Program-made: the position numbers and the translations under genes
DNA from: Treponema sp.
GTDB lineage: Bacteria > Spirochaetota > Spirochaetia > Treponematales > Breznakiellaceae
NCBI GenBank assembly: GCA_031286205.1
Contig: JAITUR010000069.1
Coordinates: 1 to 51,779 of the forward strand
Length of the DNA: 51,779 bases
Reading direction: 5' to 3'
Shown here: in pieces, positions 18,179 through 38,583 of the stretch
How the letters are laid out: each line of letters starts with the position of its first letter
Numbering within the stretch: the stretch's first letter is position 1
The notes under the pieces: generated by a model
The model's input: only the letters and a program-made list of their open reading frames with translations
Told to the model about the DNA's origin: nothing
Databases searched by the model: none

Positions 18179-18505
18179 CTATACAGACTTAGAGTTAATT
18201 CTCTTTGCGGCTTCTTGAATCTCTGTGGCAAGGGTTGATATTTTTATAGCGGCTTGTTTGTCGGCGAGTTGTTTTAATCGTTGGTTTTTTACTTCTTTGT
18301 CGCTGCCTGTAGCAAGATATTCTATTGTTACTCCTAAGGTCTTTGCCATGTCCAGGGCAAGGCTTAGTATGGGTTCGCGGTTGTGGTGCATCATGCCTTG
18401 TAAGGAGCCCAAGGGGATATTAATGTATTGTGCAAATTGGCTTTGGGTTATTTTATGTGCCTTAATTAGTTTTTTTACTCTGTTCCAAAATGCTTTTATT
18501 GTCAT
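18179..18505 (-). CDS. XRE/CI-like repressor
   Basis: From the ATG at 18505 the product has 108 residues. This start is chosen because AAAGG lies 6 bases before it. Residues 8-65 form a helix-turn-helix (KKLIKAHKITQSQFAQYINI, then GSLQGMMHHNREPIL) of the phage-repressor type. The rest is a charged helix, probably for dimerisation. Two identical-pattern operator sites lie just upstream. The surrounding phage-like ORFs suggest it is what remains of a prophage control region. Confidence 0.75.
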   Translation of the reverse strand: MTIKAFWNRVKKLIKAHKITQSQFAQYINIPLGSLQGMMHHNREPILSLALDMAKTLGVTIEYLATGSDKEVKNQRLKQLADKQAAIKISTLATEIQEAAKRINSKSV

Positions 18506-18519
18506 ATATGCCTTTGTAA

Positions 18520-18537
18520 ACTTGCTGGATAACAAGT
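18520..18537. promoter_or_regulatory. Operator-like site 1 (ACTTG-N8-CAAGT)
   Basis: An inverted repeat of 5 bases around 8 unrelated bases lies just before the ribosome-binding site of the XRE gene. It has the same pattern as the site at 18553. Confidence 0.55.
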
Positions 18538-18552
18538 AGATCTGTTTTATAA

Positions 18553-18570
18553 ACTTGTCATTTAGCAAGT
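18553..18570. promoter_or_regulatory. Operator-like site 2 (ACTTG-N8-CAAGT)
   Basis: This is the second copy of the pattern, starting 33 bases from the first (about three helical turns). The two probably bind repressor dimers on the same DNA face. Confidence 0.55.
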
Positions 18571-19179: not shown

Positions 19180-19287
19180 TCAAGGGCAAACCACCCGAAA
19201 ACCAATGCTGTCGTACCGGTAGCCTGGGTAGCTGTAGCTCCGAAACGCAGAACGGAGGTACTGCCCGAAGTTGATCCAGTAACCGCC
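19180..19287 (-). pseudogene. Orphan variable-region-like fragment of a DGR target (C-type lectin/FGE fold)
   Basis: The minus strand encodes a 35-residue C-terminal fragment that starts GGYWINFGQYLRSAFRS and ends DSIGFRVVCP, matching the end of the formylglycine-generating-enzyme/C-type lectin fold used by diversity-generating retroelements (DGRs). Twelve codons at the positions that vary in such proteins are all NNC (TAC, ATC, AAC, TTC, AGC), plus one TTT. That is the signature of adenine mutagenesis of AAC/AAT template codons. The flanking framework codons are not NNC-biased. No upstream part of the target gene, template repeat or reverse transcriptase is in the window, so it is a remnant. 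Confidence 0.6.
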
Positions 19288-19334
19288 GCATTTACATTGC
19301 AAGGTTCGGGCAGTAAGAGCAGAGATTTTTTTTG

Positions 19335-19539
19335 CTCTTTTAGGATTTTGTTTTGTTTAGGAAACTCATCCGCCTTGCTTTTGCCTTATATGCGGTTTCT
19401 GTTCGTCGGCTCGGGACTTTGCCTCCAGCTTCCTTCAGATTCCACCTCACGATGGACACCCTTGCCTTTGGCTAACACTTCCTACTGCCAAGCGTGTAGC
19501 GGACTTCCACCGCCAAGTTATTGCCCATGTCGGGCACAC
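19335..19539 (-). mobile_element. Group II intron, 5' fragment of domain I
   Basis: On the minus strand the sequence opens with GTGTGCCC, the group II intron 5' end (GUGYG). It then shows familiar domain I blocks such as GTGAGGTGG, CTGAAGGAAGC, GGAGGCAAA and CGACGAACAG. It is cut off after about 205 bases; no reverse transcriptase or domain V/VI follows. The 5' end comes directly after a terminator stem and its T-run, the preferred site of class C introns. The class is inferred from that position. Confidence 0.6.
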
Positions 19540-31426: not shown

Positions 31427-34400
31427 CTATATCTCTACCACGCCGTCGAAAACTTTAACGCTGTCGCCTGTCATAAAAACGCGTTCGTCTGTGTAGTTAA
31501 TAACAAGTTCGCCGCCGGGGAGCTTTACCCTAATGTCCACGCCTTTGTCGCAGTGACCGTTAAGGACACCGGCAACGGCGGCGGCGCATGCGCCTGTACC
31601 ACAGCCCTGGGTTTCTCCGCTTCCGCGTTCCCAAATACGCATCTTTAAATAATTTCTGTCCATAACTTCGACAAACTCGGTATGTACTCTTTGCGGAAAT
31701 AGCGGGTCGTTTTCAAATTGCGGACCTATTTTATTAAGTTCGATTTTATTGATATCTTTGCCAAAAACAACAGCGTGCGGGTTACCCATAGACACGCAGG
31801 TAATCTCGTATTCATTGCCGCCGATATTAACTTTCTGGGCAACAATTTTGTCGCCGCTTAGGTTTACGGGGATTTTCTCCGGCCGCAATTCCGCTTGTCC
31901 CATGTCAACCTTAACCAAAGAAACAAGTCCGTTCCTTGTCGATAAATACAAGTCGCGTATTCCGCTCATTGTTTCTATCTTCATCTGTTTCTTTTTTACA
32001 ATATTGTTGTCGTAAAGATATTTTGCAACACAGCGGATCGAGTTGCCGCCGATAGAATCTTCGCTGCCGTCAAGATCGAACACCCTCATTTTTGCATCGG
32101 CGGTTTCTGAAGATAAAATTAGTACAACACCGTCGCCGCCTATTCCCCTGTGTCTGTCCGACAAAAATGCAGACAGGGACTCCGGAGAGTTAATGTCTAA
32201 ATCCAGACAGTTAATGTAAATGTGGTCGTTGCTGCATCCGTGCATTTTTGTAAACGGTAATTGTAAACGGCTGGTTCGCAGATTATTAATATCTATTAGC
32301 TCGGTGTTAATTTCGCTGTAGTCGGAAAGCAGAGAGTCCGCAAGAGCATTGGCTGTATCTATCGATGTCAGGCATGGCACGCCCAGCGCGCACGCTTTCC
32401 TGCGAAGCTTGACATCATCAAGGGCGGGGTCGCGTCCTTTTTCCGATGTCGAAACTATATACGCTATCTTCCCCGATGCCAAAAGTGTCTGCGTATTAAC
32501 ATCCGGATTGTCGAAAATTTTATCTATTGGTTCGCAAGAGAAGCCCTTTGCATTTAGGAAGCGCGCTGTTCCCCTTGTGCCATGCAGAGAAAATCCCAGC
32601 TTGGCAAACTTTTCCGCAACGCCAAGTATTTCTGCTTTGTCACCGTCACGCAGGGTAAGAAGTATTCCGCCCTTTCTTTCCATTTTATAATTGGCGGCAA
32701 CAAGTCCTTTGTAAAGCGCTTCTTCCAGACTTTTTCCAAGACCAAGAACTTCGCCCGTGGATTTCATCTCCGGTCCAAGGTGAGTATCAAGGCCGGTAAG
32801 TTTTTCAAAGGAGAATACCGGTACTTTAACAGCAATATATGGAGGAATGCTGCCAATGCCGGAAGAATACCCAAGGTCTGCAAGTTTTTCGCCAACGCTA
32901 ACCTTTGTAGCAATCTCGCACATTTGAATATCCGTTACCTTGCTGATATACGGAACAGTACGCGATGCGCGCGGGTTAACCTCTATTACATAAATATCGT
33001 TTTCATAATACACATATTGAATATTAATTAGACCTTTAACCTTTAAAGCCATACATAATTTTTCTGTTATCTCGAAAATATTATCTGCAAGGGCATCATC
33101 TATATTAATTGCGGGATACACGGCAATGCTGTCGCCGGAGTGAACACCCGTGCGTTCGATATGTTCCATAATACCGGGGATAAGTACATCGTTGCCGTCG
33201 CAGATTGCATCGACTTCTATTTCGCGTCCGCTTAGGTATTTATCTATAAGGATGGGGTTCTCCTGTTTCGAGCGCAGGATAATCTCCATATACTCGCGAA
33301 TATCATCGGGCGAAAAAGCGATAATCATATTCTGCCCGCCAAGTACATACGAAGGACGCATTAATACGGGGTAGCCGAGTTTGTCGGCAGCTTCCAGCGC
33401 TTCTGCCTCTGTCATTACGCCAAAACCCCGCGGGCGTTTAATTTGCAGGCTTTCCAGCAAGATGTCAAAGCGTTCCCTGTCTTCGCTAATATCGATACTG
33501 TCCGCAGGCGTGCCAATTATGTTAACGCCCCGTTCATGCAATTTTCTTGTCAGCTTAATTGCCGTGCCGCCGCCGAACGCAACAATAACGCCTATCGGCT
33601 TTTCGATGTTAATAATATTCATTACATCGTCGATATTTAATGGTTCAAAGTACAATCTGTCTGCGATGTCAAAGTCGGTGGAGACAGTTTCAGGATTATT
33701 ATTGATAACAATTACTTCGTAGCCCATCTTACGCAATGTCCACACACAATGAACACAGGCATAATCAAATTCGATTCCCTGCCCTATTCGTATAGGACCT
33801 GATCCAAGTACGATAATTCGTTCTTTGGTGCTTTTTTGAATAAATGGGAGTGCTTCGTTTTCTGTTCCATTTTTTATGGAGTAAAAGTACGGTGTCTTTG
33901 CTTCGAATTCAGCGGCGCAGGTGTCTACCATTTTGTAAATTAGCAAGCTGCTTGCAGGTGCTGAACTGCCGTTATTGTCCGCAATATTTTTTAGGCAGTA
34001 CAAGAACCAACGATCTACCTTTGTTGTATTAAACAATTCCTCTATTGCAAACCCTCGCTTGATTGCTTCGTACAATACAAATAATCGTTCGTCAGTTACG
34101 GTTAATAAAAGCTCCCTAATTTCCGCATCTGTCTTTGCTGCCATTCTTGGCATATCCAAACTTGTTAGCCCCAGCTCTGCGCCGCGTACCGCTTTAAGGA
34201 TTGCTTCTTCGAAGGTGTCCGCTATAGACATGACTTCGCCGGTGGCTTTCATTTGAGTGCCAAGCTCATTGTTGGCATAGACGAATTTGTCAAAAGGCCA
34301 TTTTGGAAACTTGACGGCAACATAGTCTAATGCGGGTTCGAAGGCGGCAAAGGTGGTACCGGTTACCGCATTTTTTATTTCGTCCAGTGTGTATCCAATG

Positions 34401-35377
34401 GCGATCTTTGTCGAAACTTTGGCAATAGGGTAGCCGGTTGCCTTGCTTGCAAGAGCGGAAGAACGCGACACACGAGGGTTTACTTCTATAACGGCATATT
34501 CGAAGCTAGTTGGTTCAAGGGCAAGCTGGACATTGCAGCCGCCTTCTACTCCAAGCGATTTTACAATGTTAAGCGAGGCAGAACGCAGCATTTGATATTC
34601 TTTGTCGGCAAGAGTAACACAAGGCGCTATAACAATACTGTCACCTGTGTGTATGCCGACTGGATCAAAATTCTCCATAGAACAAATTGTAATGGCATTA
34701 CCGGCACGGTCGCGCATAACTTCAAACTCTATCTCTTTCCAGCCGGCAATTGATCTTTCTACAAGCACCTGATTAATAGGGGACAGTGCAAGACCATTTG
34801 TTGTAATTTCGCGCAGCTTTGCTTCGTTTACCGCATTACCGCCGCCGGATCCTCCCAGGGTAAATGCAGGGCGTACAATAACAGGATAGCCGATTTCGTC
34901 GGCAAACTTTACAGCAGTTTCTACATCTGTGGCTATTACCGAAGGAACACATGGCTGCCCGATACTTTGCATTGTATCTTTAAAGATTTTTCGATCCTCG
35001 GCCTTGTCGATTGTTTCCGGCGAAGATCCAAGAAGGCGAACCCCCATTTTATCTAGGAAGCCGTCTTTGGCAAGCTGCATACACAGTGTAAGCCCTGTCT
35101 GCCCGCCAAGCCCGGAAAGTATACTATCCGGCCGTTCTTTTTCTATAATGCGTTTGACAGTGGTAAGCGTCAGCGGCTCGATATAAATCTTATCCGCAAT
35201 ATTTTTATCTGTCATGATAGTTGCGGGGTTGGAATTTACAAGAACGATCTCTATACCGTCTTCCCGCAGAACATGGCACGCTTGAGTGCCGGCATAATCA
35301 AATTCGGCGGCCTGCCCAATTACAATGGGTCCGGAGCCTATAACTAAAACTTTTTTAATATCTTTATTAAGCGGCAT
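31427..35377 (-). CDS. carB: CarB-DapF fusion: carbamoyl-phosphate synthase large chain with a diaminopimelate-epimerase domain
   Basis: The 1316-residue product starts as a complete CarB: two ATP-grasp halves (GSGPIVIGQAAEFDYAG near residue 15, GSGPIRIGQGIEFDYA near 520), then the regulatory MGS domain near 900-1035. From about residue 1040 a DapF-type epimerase follows without a break. The second catalytic cysteine, C1259, is present in ETQGCGTGACA, but the first is replaced by glycine (G1110 in SIGGNSIRC; usually MCGNG.RC). The fusion would link pyrimidine/arginine and lysine/DAP metabolism. A DapF lacking this cysteine may not epimerise. It is followed upstream by a MazEF module and carA. 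GAAGGAAA precedes the ATG. Confidence 0.92.
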   Translation of the reverse strand: MPLNKDIKKVLVIGSGPIVIGQAAEFDYAGTQACHVLREDGIEIVLVNSNPATIMTDKNIADKIYIEPLTLTTVKRIIEKERPDSILSGLGGQTGLTLCMQLAKDGFLDKMGVRLLGSSPETIDKAEDRKIFKDTMQSIGQPCVPSVIATDVETAVKFADEIGYPVIVRPAFTLGGSGGGNAVNEAKLREITTNGLALSPINQVLVERSIAGWKEIEFEVMRDRAGNAITICSMENFDPVGIHTGDSIVIAPCVTLADKEYQMLRSASLNIVKSLGVEGGCNVQLALEPTSFEYAVIEVNPRVSRSSALASKATGYPIAKVSTKIAIGYTLDEIKNAVTGTTFAAFEPALDYVAVKFPKWPFDKFVYANNELGTQMKATGEVMSIADTFEEAILKAVRGAELGLTSLDMPRMAAKTDAEIRELLLTVTDERLFVLYEAIKRGFAIEELFNTTKVDRWFLYCLKNIADNNGSSAPASSLLIYKMVDTCAAEFEAKTPYFYSIKNGTENEALPFIQKSTKERIIVLGSGPIRIGQGIEFDYACVHCVWTLRKMGYEVIVINNNPETVSTDFDIADRLYFEPLNIDDVMNIINIEKPIGVIVAFGGGTAIKLTRKLHERGVNIIGTPADSIDISEDRERFDILLESLQIKRPRGFGVMTEAEALEAADKLGYPVLMRPSYVLGGQNMIIAFSPDDIREYMEIILRSKQENPILIDKYLSGREIEVDAICDGNDVLIPGIMEHIERTGVHSGDSIAVYPAINIDDALADNIFEITEKLCMALKVKGLINIQYVYYENDIYVIEVNPRASRTVPYISKVTDIQMCEIATKVSVGEKLADLGYSSGIGSIPPYIAVKVPVFSFEKLTGLDTHLGPEMKSTGEVLGLGKSLEEALYKGLVAANYKMERKGGILLTLRDGDKAEILGVAEKFAKLGFSLHGTRGTARFLNAKGFSCEPIDKIFDNPDVNTQTLLASGKIAYIVSTSEKGRDPALDDVKLRRKACALGVPCLTSIDTANALADSLLSDYSEINTELIDINNLRTSRLQLPFTKMHGCSNDHIYINCLDLDINSPESLSAFLSDRHRGIGGDGVVLILSSETADAKMRVFDLDGSEDSIGGNSIRCVAKYLYDNNIVKKKQMKIETMSGIRDLYLSTRNGLVSLVKVDMGQAELRPEKIPVNLSGDKIVAQKVNIGGNEYEITCVSMGNPHAVVFGKDINKIELNKIGPQFENDPLFPQRVHTEFVEVMDRNYLKMRIWERGSGETQGCGTGACAAAVAGVLNGHCDKGVDIRVKLPGGELVINYTDERVFMTGDSVKVFDGVVEI

Positions 35378-35503: not shown

Positions 35504-35725
35504 ATGACAATAACACAAACCGTTGAAATTCCTTCTAGCCGCCGCATTACCCTTGAAGTTCCTCGGGAAATTCCAACAGGGGCTGTAATTCTTTCTTTTA
35601 CTCCTGCAAATACGACAGAATCCATAACAGAAAAACTTAATAGTTATTATAAAAATCATGATTCTTGCCTTGCTAACGATATTAAAGCAGCAAACTATCG
35701 CCTGCTTAAAGAAGAAGATTGGTAA
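35504..35725 (+). CDS. MazE-like antitoxin
   Basis: The 73-residue product precedes and abuts a MazF-type toxin, as antitoxins do. Its N-terminus (MTITQTVEIPSSRRITLEVP) is nearly the same as that of the VapB-like antitoxin at 17735, implying a shared DNA-binding domain. The C-terminus (YYKNHDSCLAND, ANYRLLKEEDW) is acidic and probably binds the toxin. The gene appears to be leaderless. The pair sits on the strand opposite to carA and carB. Confidence 0.72.
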   Translation: MTITQTVEIPSSRRITLEVPREIPTGAVILSFTPANTTESITEKLNSYYKNHDSCLANDIKAANYRLLKEEDW

Positions 35726-36067
35726 ATGATTCGTGGTGAAATATGGTGGGCAAATTTGCCTGATCCTGGTGGCTCAGCTCCCGCCAAACGCCGGCCGGTA
35801 TTAATTATCCAAAGCAATGAATTTAATCGAAGTAAAATAAATACTATAATCTGCGCAGCCATCACATCCAACACAGAGTTGTCTTCTCTGCCAGGAAATT
35901 TGTTGTTAGAAAAATCGGTTTCTGGTTTAGACAAAACATCGGTTGTAAATTTTTCTCAAATTGTAACTGTTGATAAACACGATCTAACGGATCATGTAGC
36001 CATGTTACCAAAACTCATACTAGAAAAAATTAATAATTGCCTTATAACAGTTTTAGAAATTACATGA
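35726..36067 (+). CDS. MazF/PemK-type toxin endoribonuclease
   Basis: This 113-residue protein is a PemK/MazF family toxin, which cuts mRNA and arrests growth when its antitoxin is lost. The conserved start IRGEIWWANLPDPGGSAPAK, the RRPVLIIQ strand and the SSLPGNLLLE stretch are typical. The length matches the family and the gene is intact. The start codon directly follows the antitoxin stop, so it is translationally coupled. It is the second gene of a module that separates carA from carB. Confidence 0.88.
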   Translation: MIRGEIWWANLPDPGGSAPAKRRPVLIIQSNEFNRSKINTIICAAITSNTELSSLPGNLLLEKSVSGLDKTSVVNFSQIVTVDKHDLTDHVAMLPKLILEKINNCLITVLEIT

Positions 36068-36097: not shown

Positions 36098-37141
36098 TTA
36101 ATTTATCCTGCTGATAATTTCATCAAATAAGAATCCGGTGTCTAAGGGGCCGCTGCAGGCTTCAGGGTGGAACTGAACAGAGAATGATTTGCCGTAGTCC
36201 AGACCTTCGTTACTGCCGTCATTAACATTAATAAACAAACTGTCGTTTGCAATTACTTCATAACCGTGGTTTTGACTGGTGATATAAACATTTCCTGTTC
36301 GCGTATCTTTTACAGGCTGATTCACGCCCCGATGACCAAACTTAAGTTTTCTGGTCTTGTATCCCTTTGCAAGCGCAAGAAGCAGGTGTCCTGTACAAAT
36401 GCCAAAAATTGGCAGCCCGTGTTTATCAAGTTCTTTGATAGTTTCTATAATTGGTTTGTTTGCAGAATCTGCCGGATCGCCCGGGCCATTACTAAGCATA
36501 ATGCCGTTTGGCTCGATTTTTAGAATTTCTTTTGCACTTGTAAAACAGGGGAACGACCATACCTCACAGCCGCGGGCTGCAAGAGCATTCGCTATTCCGC
36601 GTTTTGCTCCAAAATCCATAAGAGCTATTCGCCGGTTTCCGCTGCTTAGTTTTTCTATACTCTTCGATGTAACAGAGCCAATGGCATTTTTTACAACATA
36701 CGCCTTTGCTTCGGAACGATCTTTGTTCGTTGGAGGGGCAGTGCAGATCTTCCCGTTCATTACGCCGTTTTCCCTTATTATTTTTGTCAGGCGGCGGGTA
36801 TCAATACCATGAAGCCCAATAATGTTTTGTTCTTTTAAAAAATTATCCAGGGATTTTTCGTTTCTAAAGTTGGAAGGGTTTGTGCAGGGGTACTTGGCTA
36901 TATACGCCCTTGCTCTAATACCGGCACTTTCAAAATCGGAGGAGATAACGCCATAGTTACCAATAAGGGGAAAGGTTTGAAAAACAATTTGTCCGTAATA
37001 ACTGGGATCTGTAAGGGTTTCCAGGTAGCCTGTCATTCCGGTTGTAAAAACAATTTCGCCGGTAATATCGCCCGCAGCGCCAAAGGACTTGCCCTCGAAC
37101 ACTTCGCCGTTTTCCAAAATTAGATATGCTTTATCGTTCAT
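36098..37141 (-). CDS. carA: Carbamoyl-phosphate synthase small chain
   Basis: CarA releases ammonia from glutamine and feeds it to CarB for carbamoyl phosphate, a precursor of pyrimidines and arginine. The 347-residue protein has the N-terminal CPSase domain (AYLILENGEVFEGKSFGA). A class I glutamine amidotransferase domain follows: the nucleophile cysteine is in GICTGHLLLA near residue 243, and the histidine-glutamate pair in QFHPEA near 325. The length is slightly below E. coli CarA. It is separated from carB by a toxin-antitoxin pair on the other strand and has its own promoter. Confidence 0.95.
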   Translation of the reverse strand: MNDKAYLILENGEVFEGKSFGAAGDITGEIVFTTGMTGYLETLTDPSYYGQIVFQTFPLIGNYGVISSDFESAGIRARAYIAKYPCTNPSNFRNEKSLDNFLKEQNIIGLHGIDTRRLTKIIRENGVMNGKICTAPPTNKDRSEAKAYVVKNAIGSVTSKSIEKLSSGNRRIALMDFGAKRGIANALAARGCEVWSFPCFTSAKEILKIEPNGIMLSNGPGDPADSANKPIIETIKELDKHGLPIFGICTGHLLLALAKGYKTRKLKFGHRGVNQPVKDTRTGNVYITSQNHGYEVIANDSLFINVNDGSNEGLDYGKSFSVQFHPEACSGPLDTGFLFDEIISRIN

Positions 37142-37194: not shown

Positions 37195-38583
37195 CTATGT
37201 GCCGAAAAAGCAGGTGGTGCAGAAAGGCAGAAAACATTCTGAACAGGCGGCTTTAAGTCCGTCTATGCTAATGTAACCCAAGCTGTCTGCGCCTATTTTA
37301 CGGCAGATATCGTCATGACTCATTTTGTTGGCAATAAGGTTTTCTTCGCTGTCAATGTCTGTTCCGTAGTGGCAGGTAAAACGAAACGGCGGGGAAGAAA
37401 TCATCATGTGGACTTCTTTTGCTCCCGCGTTTTTTAGGCTTTTTATAATTTTTTGACTCGTTGTTCCGCGTACGATAGAATCGTCTACAAGCACAATGCG
37501 TTTTCCCTTAATGCTTGCTGCCAGCGGATTAAGTTTAAGCAATACCACACTGTCTCTTTGTGTCTGCGTGGGATAAATAAAACTTCGTCCAATGTAGCGG
37601 TTTTTTACAAACCCTGTAACAAGCGGAAGTCCGCTCTGAGCGCTGTAACCGTATGCCGCATCAAGGCCGGAGTCCGGAACACCGCAGACAACATCCGCTT
37701 CTACAGGATATTCCTTTGCCAATGCAACACCCATGTTGTATCGTGCATTGTAAACACTTAGACCATCAATTACAGAGTCCGGGCGCGCAAAATAAACATA
37801 TTCAAAAATACAGAGACCTTTATTTTCTTCTTTATTTTCCAGCTTTACACCTTCGAGTATAATTTCTCCGTTTCTTATTACTACTACTTCGCCGGGAAGA
37901 ACATCGCGGACAAATTCAAAACCGCATGTATCAAGGGCGCAGCTTTCGGAAGATACGGCATATCCAATGGCGCTTTTTCCTATACAAAGCGGACGGAAAC
38001 CGTTTGGATCACGGACGGCTATTAATTTATTTTTACTTGTTGCAATAATAAAAGAAAATGCTCCACGAAGAAGGTCAGATGCTTTTATAACCCCCTGTAT
38101 CGAACTTTTTTCCATAGTTATATGAAAGGCAATTAATGACGAGATAACTTCACTGTCGCTGGTTGCATTAAAATGAATACCGTGTTCTTTTAATTCGTCG
38201 CGGAATTGTTTGACATTTGTAATATTACCATTGTGCGCTGTCGCAATTCGTCCTGTAAGATATTCCGTAATAAAAGGTCCAACATTTTCCCTGGAGCTGT
38301 TGCCTTTTGTGGAATAGCGGGTATGCCCAACGGCGGTATTACCCTTTGGAAGACTGGTAAGCCCTCCTTCGCCAAACACTTCGCTTACAAGACCGCTGTC
38401 TTTATAACATACAATGCTTCGGTTGTTGGAAACAGCTATGCCGGCTCCTTCCTGCCCCCGATGCTGCAGGGAAAGCAAACCATTGTAAGTAATGCCGGCA
38501 GCTTCATCCGTGTTTAAACTAAGTCCAAAAATGGCACATTCTTCTTTTAGTTTATCCTCATCATATCCAATATCACTGCACAC
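37195..38583 (-). CDS. purF: Amidophosphoribosyltransferase (Fe-S type)
   Basis: PurF makes phosphoribosylamine, the first step of purine synthesis. The 462-residue protein begins at a GTG at 38583, chosen because GGGAGG lies 6 bases upstream. A short propeptide precedes the catalytic cysteine (KEECAIFGL, residue 16). The N-terminal glutaminase domain is followed by a phosphoribosyltransferase domain with the PRPP motif VLVDDSIVRGTTS near residue 355. C-terminal cysteines (FCTTCFFG) match those that bind the 4Fe-4S cluster in the Bacillus-type enzyme. It lies upstream of carA on the same strand, with its own promoter. Confidence 0.95.
   Translation of the reverse strand: MCSDIGYDEDKLKEECAIFGLSLNTDEAAGITYNGLLSLQHRGQEGAGIAVSNNRSIVCYKDSGLVSEVFGEGGLTSLPKGNTAVGHTRYSTKGNSSRENVGPFITEYLTGRIATAHNGNITNVKQFRDELKEHGIHFNATSDSEVISSLIAFHITMEKSSIQGVIKASDLLRGAFSFIIATSKNKLIAVRDPNGFRPLCIGKSAIGYAVSSESCALDTCGFEFVRDVLPGEVVVIRNGEIILEGVKLENKEENKGLCIFEYVYFARPDSVIDGLSVYNARYNMGVALAKEYPVEADVVCGVPDSGLDAAYGYSAQSGLPLVTGFVKNRYIGRSFIYPTQTQRDSVVLLKLNPLAASIKGKRIVLVDDSIVRGTTSQKIIKSLKNAGAKEVHMMISSPPFRFTCHYGTDIDSEENLIANKMSHDDICRKIGADSLGYISIDGLKAACSECFLPFCTTCFFGT

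Follow-up and report, generated by a model that had tools for sequence, protein, structure and literature searches.

A carB::dapF fusion gene of Treponema without the first DapF cysteine: a candidate ligand-binding regulatory domain on carbamoyl-phosphate synthase

We analyzed a 51,779-nucleotide stretch of DNA from Treponema sp. (contig JAITUR010000069.1 of GenBank assembly GCA_031286205.1; the whole stretch is referred to as the window), in which the gene for the large chain of carbamoyl-phosphate synthase (CPSase), carB, runs on into a domain of the diaminopimelate (DAP) epimerase DapF. The fusion gene, carB::dapF, occupies positions 31427..35377 of the (-) strand as a single uninterrupted frame of 1316 residues. 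Pfam and NCBIfam matches divide it, as the original prediction had proposed, into a complete CarB part (residues 1–1040; 32258..35377, (-) strand) and a full-length DapF-type domain (residues 1041–1316; 31430..32257, (-) strand), a tail of 276 residues placed directly behind the MGS-bearing CarB part. Upstream on the same strand lie carA, encoding the glutaminase subunit (36098..37141, (-) strand), and purF (37195..38583, (-) strand), giving the order purF-carA-carB::dapF. In the following, genomes and loci used for comparison carry G and L numbers, respectively.

The domains of a CPSase large chain are complete in the fusion, comprising both CPSase ATP-grasp halves, the oligomerization domain and the MGS allosteric domain (residues 916–1004). 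E. coli Glu892 and Tyr1040, which we take to be further contacts of the ornithine pocket, are replaced by Val and Cys, respectively. Retained are Thr977 and Lys993 of the UMP site and Thr1042, which contacts ornithine in the E. coli enzyme (PMC6245113).

The tail matches the DapF model TIGR00652 at residues 1042–1314 with 258.8 bits (cut-off 114.65), covering model positions 3–268 of 270. An AlphaFold model of residues 541–1316 (mean predicted local distance difference test score 86.9, predicted template modelling score 0.84) contains the two-lobed DapF fold. It superimposes on DapF structures bound to DAP analogues with 1.4 Å over 271 residues (PDB ID 9mro) and 1.6 Å over 273 residues (3ejx), and less well on H. 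influenzae DapF (1gqz; 2.6 Å over 270 residues), although 9mro and 3ejx are also nearer in sequence (44 and 41% identity, compared to 33% for 1gqz). Proline-racemase-type proteins match the model in fold at only 13–17% identity. Dehydratases of that type use a Cys/Thr catalytic pair.

Codon reading and alignment to the catalytic residues of H. influenzae DapF place Gly1110 (codon GGC; 32048..32050, (-) strand) at the position of Cys73 and Cys1259 (31601..31603, (-) strand) at that of Cys217, so that the glycine and the intact second cysteine reported earlier are both borne out. A sequencing or assembly error at 32048–32050, which had been named as a possible refutation, can be ruled out: the search for the glycine variant elsewhere found it in G014, G021, G024, G025, L029, L030 and L031, and other non-cysteine residues recur in further copies. 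Also discarded was nearby Cys1048 (in MHGCSND) as a general compensation, since Thr occupies this position in other cysteine-less copies and Cys is present in several copies with both catalytic cysteines.

The further claim that all other core motifs are kept stands for seven of nine DAP contacts scored (N11, N64, G74, N75, N157, N190, E208, R209 and G218, taken from PMC8225329) and fails for two. Asn64 is replaced by Asp1101 (32075..32077, (-) strand), a change common to the window and five related copies with the same Gly/Cys pair (G014, G021, G025, L029, L030), and Asn190 by His1232 (31682..31684, (-) strand), found among the tabulated fused copies only in the window and G217. As both asparagines contact the distal carboxylate of DAP, the ligand of the window's lineage may differ; in the window copy, with both of these contacts changed, it may have shifted.

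Loss of the first cysteine recurs across the fused genes. We assembled 47 readable fused copies, leaving out a decayed copy in G051 (Tyr/Ser), L035 (from another genome, its domain identical to that of L034) and a G005 fragment (L018/L048) in which the position is missing. Written as first/second position, the copies read C/C (12), A/C (15), G/C (12), S/S (3), S/A (3), V/C (1) and G/S (1). The first cysteine is absent in 35 of them (26 of 33 in a first table, nine of 14 in a survey table), with Gly, Ala, Ser or Val in its place; the second is kept in 28 of these 35 and also gone in seven (three S/S, three S/A, one G/S). By comparison, 41 of 45 standalone DapFs, which are best matches or partners and not a random draw, are C/C, and the remaining four are S/S proteins from one treponeme family. 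This set excludes weak DapF-like matches of the same order and L026, which is decayed and lacks either cysteine.

The excluded matches are open reading frames (ORFs) of about 286–337 residues in L026, L210, L211, L212 and L213, with catalytic motifs largely lost. Standalone Ser/Ser proteins at L152 (10223–11263), L214 (6348–7328) and L215 (4987–5976), from a treponeme family other than that of the window, keep the tested DAP contacts and have lysA within about 3 kb.

A tree of 39 of the 47 fused copies, with native CarB as its root, implies six losses of the first cysteine on the assumption that this residue was ancestral and never regained, with nine residue changes; as several forks in the trees are unresolved, six is an estimate. 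A DapF tree of 55 rows gave six changes between Cys and non-Cys, one of them within the standalone S/S family. At a threshold of at least 80% presence in cysteine-less and at most 30% in Cys/Cys copies, no acid/base residue emerges along with cysteine loss. The columns that do shift at this threshold are 1132 (to Met), 1147 (to Thr) and 1282 (to Ile).

The pocket around the missing cysteine has largely been kept. Across the 35 first-cysteine-less copies, the DAP contacts are canonical in 299 of 314 cells (221 of 233 in the 26 copies of the first table, 78 of 81 in the nine others). The 12 departures in the 26 copies are Asn64 to Asp (six), Asn11 to Asp (three) and one each at Asn157, Asn190 and Arg209. 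Of the remaining columns, 48 reach at least 90% identity among Cys/Cys enzymes, and their mean retention in the same 26 copies is 93%; the contacts are about as conserved as other core columns. Even the S/A copies of G258, G283 and G332, in which both cysteines are gone, keep all nine contacts. The ratio of nonsynonymous to synonymous substitution rates (dN/dS; Nei-Gojobori) of the DapF domain, for which several dS values are high or saturated, is 0.04–0.16 for the 12 pairs that lack the first cysteine, compared with 0.19 for the single Cys/Cys pair; it exceeds that of the CarB half in nine of the ten pairs computable for both. At the level of sequence, then, these copies have lost the catalytic group, and purifying selection has continued to act on most of the pocket.

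The fusion, looked for elsewhere as the original prediction had advised, is present in the genus and well beyond the spirochaetes. Among 35 other genomes of the genus, 17 have a DapF match, 16 of them in frame with CarB and one (G005) as a fragment at a contig end, and 18 have none. Fourteen of these 18 encode a different, native CarB that is 47–51% identical to the aligned portion of the first 616 residues of the window's CarB, and the remaining four yielded no CarB match at E 1e-100. The native frames, of about 1,025–1,171 residues, leave no space for a DapF tail; that of G007 is split. Both kinds of CarB occur in G006, G013 and G018, and G005 has the native kind together with its DapF fragment. 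A scan of named genomes found the fusion also in Bacillota metagenome-assembled genomes (MAGs) and in Treponema MAGs, the latter presumably from termite guts, judging by their isolate names. The phylum of G063 (Bacillota) was sampled with 299 genomes, with G063 as the center of the draw and itself counted; at least 15 of them carry the fusion, given matches listed down to E 1.5e-73.

Some carriers deviate in gene structure. In G015 (L142/L143) and G009 (L144/L145), CarB comes as two halves on different contigs, possibly a natural split near residue 470, and the second half bears the DapF domain. Besides its decayed fused copy and a native-type CarB, G051 (L138, L139) has the dehydrogenase Ddh and an N-terminal CarB half on its own, next to which lies a standalone Cys/Cys DapF.

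In the CarB tree, 32 fused copies separate from five native-type copies (support 100/99). Because the native CarB of the genus lacks DapF and is only 47–51% identical to the fused one, the fused gene was probably acquired horizontally by the genus, most likely from Bacillota, and would have displaced the native CarB. The fused copies of G048 and G054 group with Bacillota copies in the rooted tree (98/97), which points to a second transfer into their family. The trees include no unfused Bacillota CarB, and one standalone DapF (L063) is placed among the fused ones in the DapF tree, so they do not establish that the fusion arose only once. No account of a CarB-DapF fusion was among the open-licence PubMed Central papers listed in searches for it or for a DapF pseudoenzyme, as judged by titles and abstract openings; the part of PMC9026213 consulted describes a pyridoxal-phosphate-type replacement for DapF, not a CarB-DapF fusion.

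The surroundings of the fused gene are partly shared. The order purF-carA-carB::dapF recurs in six of 26 related loci (L033, L034, L036, L038, L130, L203). In 23 of the 26, carA is the neighbor of the fusion, and L052, where automated frame choice had masked the fused gene, makes 24 when read by eye; L137 and L138 have no carA at this place. The two genes adjoin or overlap in the 23 related loci with both called. In the window, two small ORFs lie between them on the (+) strand (35504–36067), a toxin-antitoxin-like pair of a 73-residue ORF without a Pfam match followed by a PemK/MazF-family ORF (PF02452). With Rfam at gathering thresholds, nothing matched at the car genes of the window; elsewhere there was a match to RF02001, a family of group II introns (126 bits; 19260–19456, (-) strand), about 0.7 kb from an ORF with a CI-repressor-like helix-turn-helix (18182–18568).

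Based on these results, we suggest that the tail is a non-epimerizing, ligand-binding regulatory (allosteric) domain on CPSase, a reading to which we assign a probability of roughly 0.58. That epimerase activity has been lost is deduced by analogy with published cysteine mutants: E. coli DapF C73A/C217A shows no conversion of LL-DAP, and PddB, a DapF-like racemase, retains less than 0.1% activity when a single cysteine is changed to Ser (PMC4227774, PMC8225329). Among the functions offered by the original prediction, a sensor of DAP or lysine is the best supported. The first cysteine has disappeared repeatedly while the DAP pocket has mostly stayed, and outside Treponema a separate DapF with both cysteines accompanies the first-cysteine-less fusion in 14 of 15 genomes (all nine of the survey and five of the six in the first set); ligand binding and regulation are proposed on these grounds. 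In the one exception, the genome of L052, no standalone DapF was found. G184 has a standalone dapF, together with nadE and dapL, less than 10 kb away from its fusion.

Several observations weigh against this interpretation. A second DapF above the cut-off is also present in nine of the 12 Cys/Cys carriers and so does not separate the two states; of the other three, G065 has a weak partial match only, and G015 and G284 have none. The Cys/Cys fused copy of G284 is the sole DapF of its genome and is directly followed by dapL, an arrangement that looks like the ancestral active state, and all 12 Cys/Cys copies may be active. Parsimony on a CarB-only tree needs just two changes between Cys and non-Cys if regain is allowed, with seven residue changes. 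The pocket has loosened somewhat, as shown by the aspartates at Asn64 and Asn11, some further core columns are kept in only 54–81% of the first-cysteine-less copies, and the window copy itself alters two DAP contacts. Finally, the treponemes do not follow the pattern of the other carriers. Of the treponeme genomes, 20 have a first-cysteine-less copy (the window's own, 15 genus-mates, G048, G054, G059 and G060), and only one of these, G060, the MAG from which L030 stems, has another DapF, a standalone Cys/Cys protein on a 3.9-kb contig that is possibly contamination. The second, normal dapF expected by the original prediction was not found in the window's own genome (94.5% complete), nor was Ddh or any other recognized epimerase, apart from one alanine racemase.

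The domain is thus its own genome's only DapF, and an unusual epimerase is conceivable: the domain might still supply the cell with meso-DAP for lysine, by use of one cysteine together with water or another residue. LysC, Asd, DapA, DapB and DapL are all encoded in the same genome, as is a LysA-type enzyme whose score of 271.8 bits falls short of the 297.9 cut-off; most pocket residues are retained, and G048 and G054 (99% complete) likewise have an A/C fused DapF alone. We nevertheless consider a working epimerase unlikely, given the inactive or almost inactive cysteine mutants and the existence of S/A copies without either cysteine. Moreover, 12 of the 18 DapF-less genus-mates have both DapB and LysA-type matches. 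In G012 (94% complete, no DapF match), the only one of them examined closely, both gene clusters of the window's genome, asd-lysA-dapL and lysC-dapB-dapA, are likewise present, and the genus therefore meets or avoids the epimerase step without DapF.

The MurE of the window's genome, examined as a possible clue to the third residue of the wall, has the motif DEDPR and not DNPR. Ornithine in place of DAP is reported for treponeme peptidoglycan (PMC5104382), which may leave lysine as the only demand for meso-DAP. As an observation in its own right, a gap is exposed in the window's genome (L147, L148) and in G012 (L150, L151): the lysine pathway of both is of the DapL type, and a search for a recognizable DAP epimerase with two cysteines found none in either.

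Alternatively, the tail could serve CarB folding or oligomerization as a scaffold or passenger that binds no ligand. The higher dN/dS of the domain relative to the CarB half and the strong decay of the G051 copy would fit such a role, and DapF can act through protein contact alone, as with RppH. A mere scaffold would not, however, require DAP contacts about as conserved as other core columns, and the native CarBs of the same genus manage without a tail, leaving this explanation improbable as well. Least probable is another one-base reaction of Cys1259, such as an elimination, a dehydration or a one-way deprotonation (the different racemase or dehydratase-like enzyme of the original prediction is possible in the same sense), for although the second cysteine persists in 28 of 35 first-cysteine-less copies and eliminations can be carried out by DapF and by Cys-to-Ser glutamate racemases (PMC8142540), it is gone too in the other seven, the first position takes Gly, Ala, Ser or Val, and no acid/base residue accompanies the loss at the 80%/30% threshold.

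A regulatory domain could have arisen and work as follows. The DapF tail would have arrived with a horizontally acquired carA-carB::dapF unit and would no longer epimerize DAP, although it retains the closed fold in which DapF binds DAP and the larger part of the pocket. DapF lobes close on the substrate (PMC11602996); binding of DAP or a related diamino acid would likewise close the two lobes of the tail, and this closure might be relayed to the synthetase domains. Standing directly after the MGS domain, the tail could add an amino-acid input. The output of carbamoyl phosphate would in this way be tied to the aspartate-derived DAP/lysine branch, with the hypothesized purpose of matching carbamoyl phosphate and UTP to a branch that likewise starts from aspartate. 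More tentatively, one may envisage a whole class of CPSases that captured an active DapF (a state still represented by the Cys/Cys copy beside dapL in G284), disarmed it about six times and largely kept its DAP pocket, so that the supply of carbamoyl phosphate, UTP and UDP-sugars follows the DAP branch. Within this picture, the replacement of Asn64 by Asp in the lineage of the window, joined in the window by His1232, would have retuned the pocket to a ligand without a distal carboxylate, e.g. lysine or ornithine, the latter being the diamino acid reported from treponeme walls.

The fused copies suggest a catalyst turned metabolite sensor. If the tail is indeed a receptor, a classic example of allosteric control has acquired a further input through the capture of an entire metabolic enzyme, and the supply of pyrimidines and arginine is linked to the DAP/lysine branch. 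To our knowledge, control of E. coli or Bacillus CPSase by this branch is not known. The natural Cys/Cys, one-cysteine and no-cysteine fusions would then form a series in which the change from catalyst to sensor can be tested.

Several known systems come close to the window protein. It resembles DapF (TIGR00652, PF01678) in its full-length fold, above-cut-off score, seven of nine DAP contacts and second cysteine, and differs in the glycine at the first cysteine, the replacements of Asn64 and Asn190, and its position behind CarB. Like the E. coli CPSase large chain (PDB ID 1bxr), it has both ATP-grasp halves, the MGS domain, a nearby carA and the retained Thr977, Lys993 and Thr1042; unlike it, it bears the DapF tail and the exchanges at Glu892 and Tyr1040. 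Human CPS1, which is switched by N-acetylglutamate (PMC4655335), sets a precedent for an amino-acid derivative controlling a CPSase, but it responds to its own single ligand and has no recruited epimerase domain. PddB, a diaminobutyrate racemase in which the distal-carboxylate contacts are replaced (PMC8225329), and the histidine racemase of F. nucleatum (PMC11602996) exemplify DapF-like proteins with changed ligands, yet both are described with two catalytic cysteines. The E. coli DapF-RppH complex (PDB ID 6d13) offers a regulatory role that outlives epimerase activity, in that the C73A/C217A variant still binds and activates RppH (PMC4227774); there, DapF is a separate protein acting on its partner RppH, whereas here it is fused to a CPSase.

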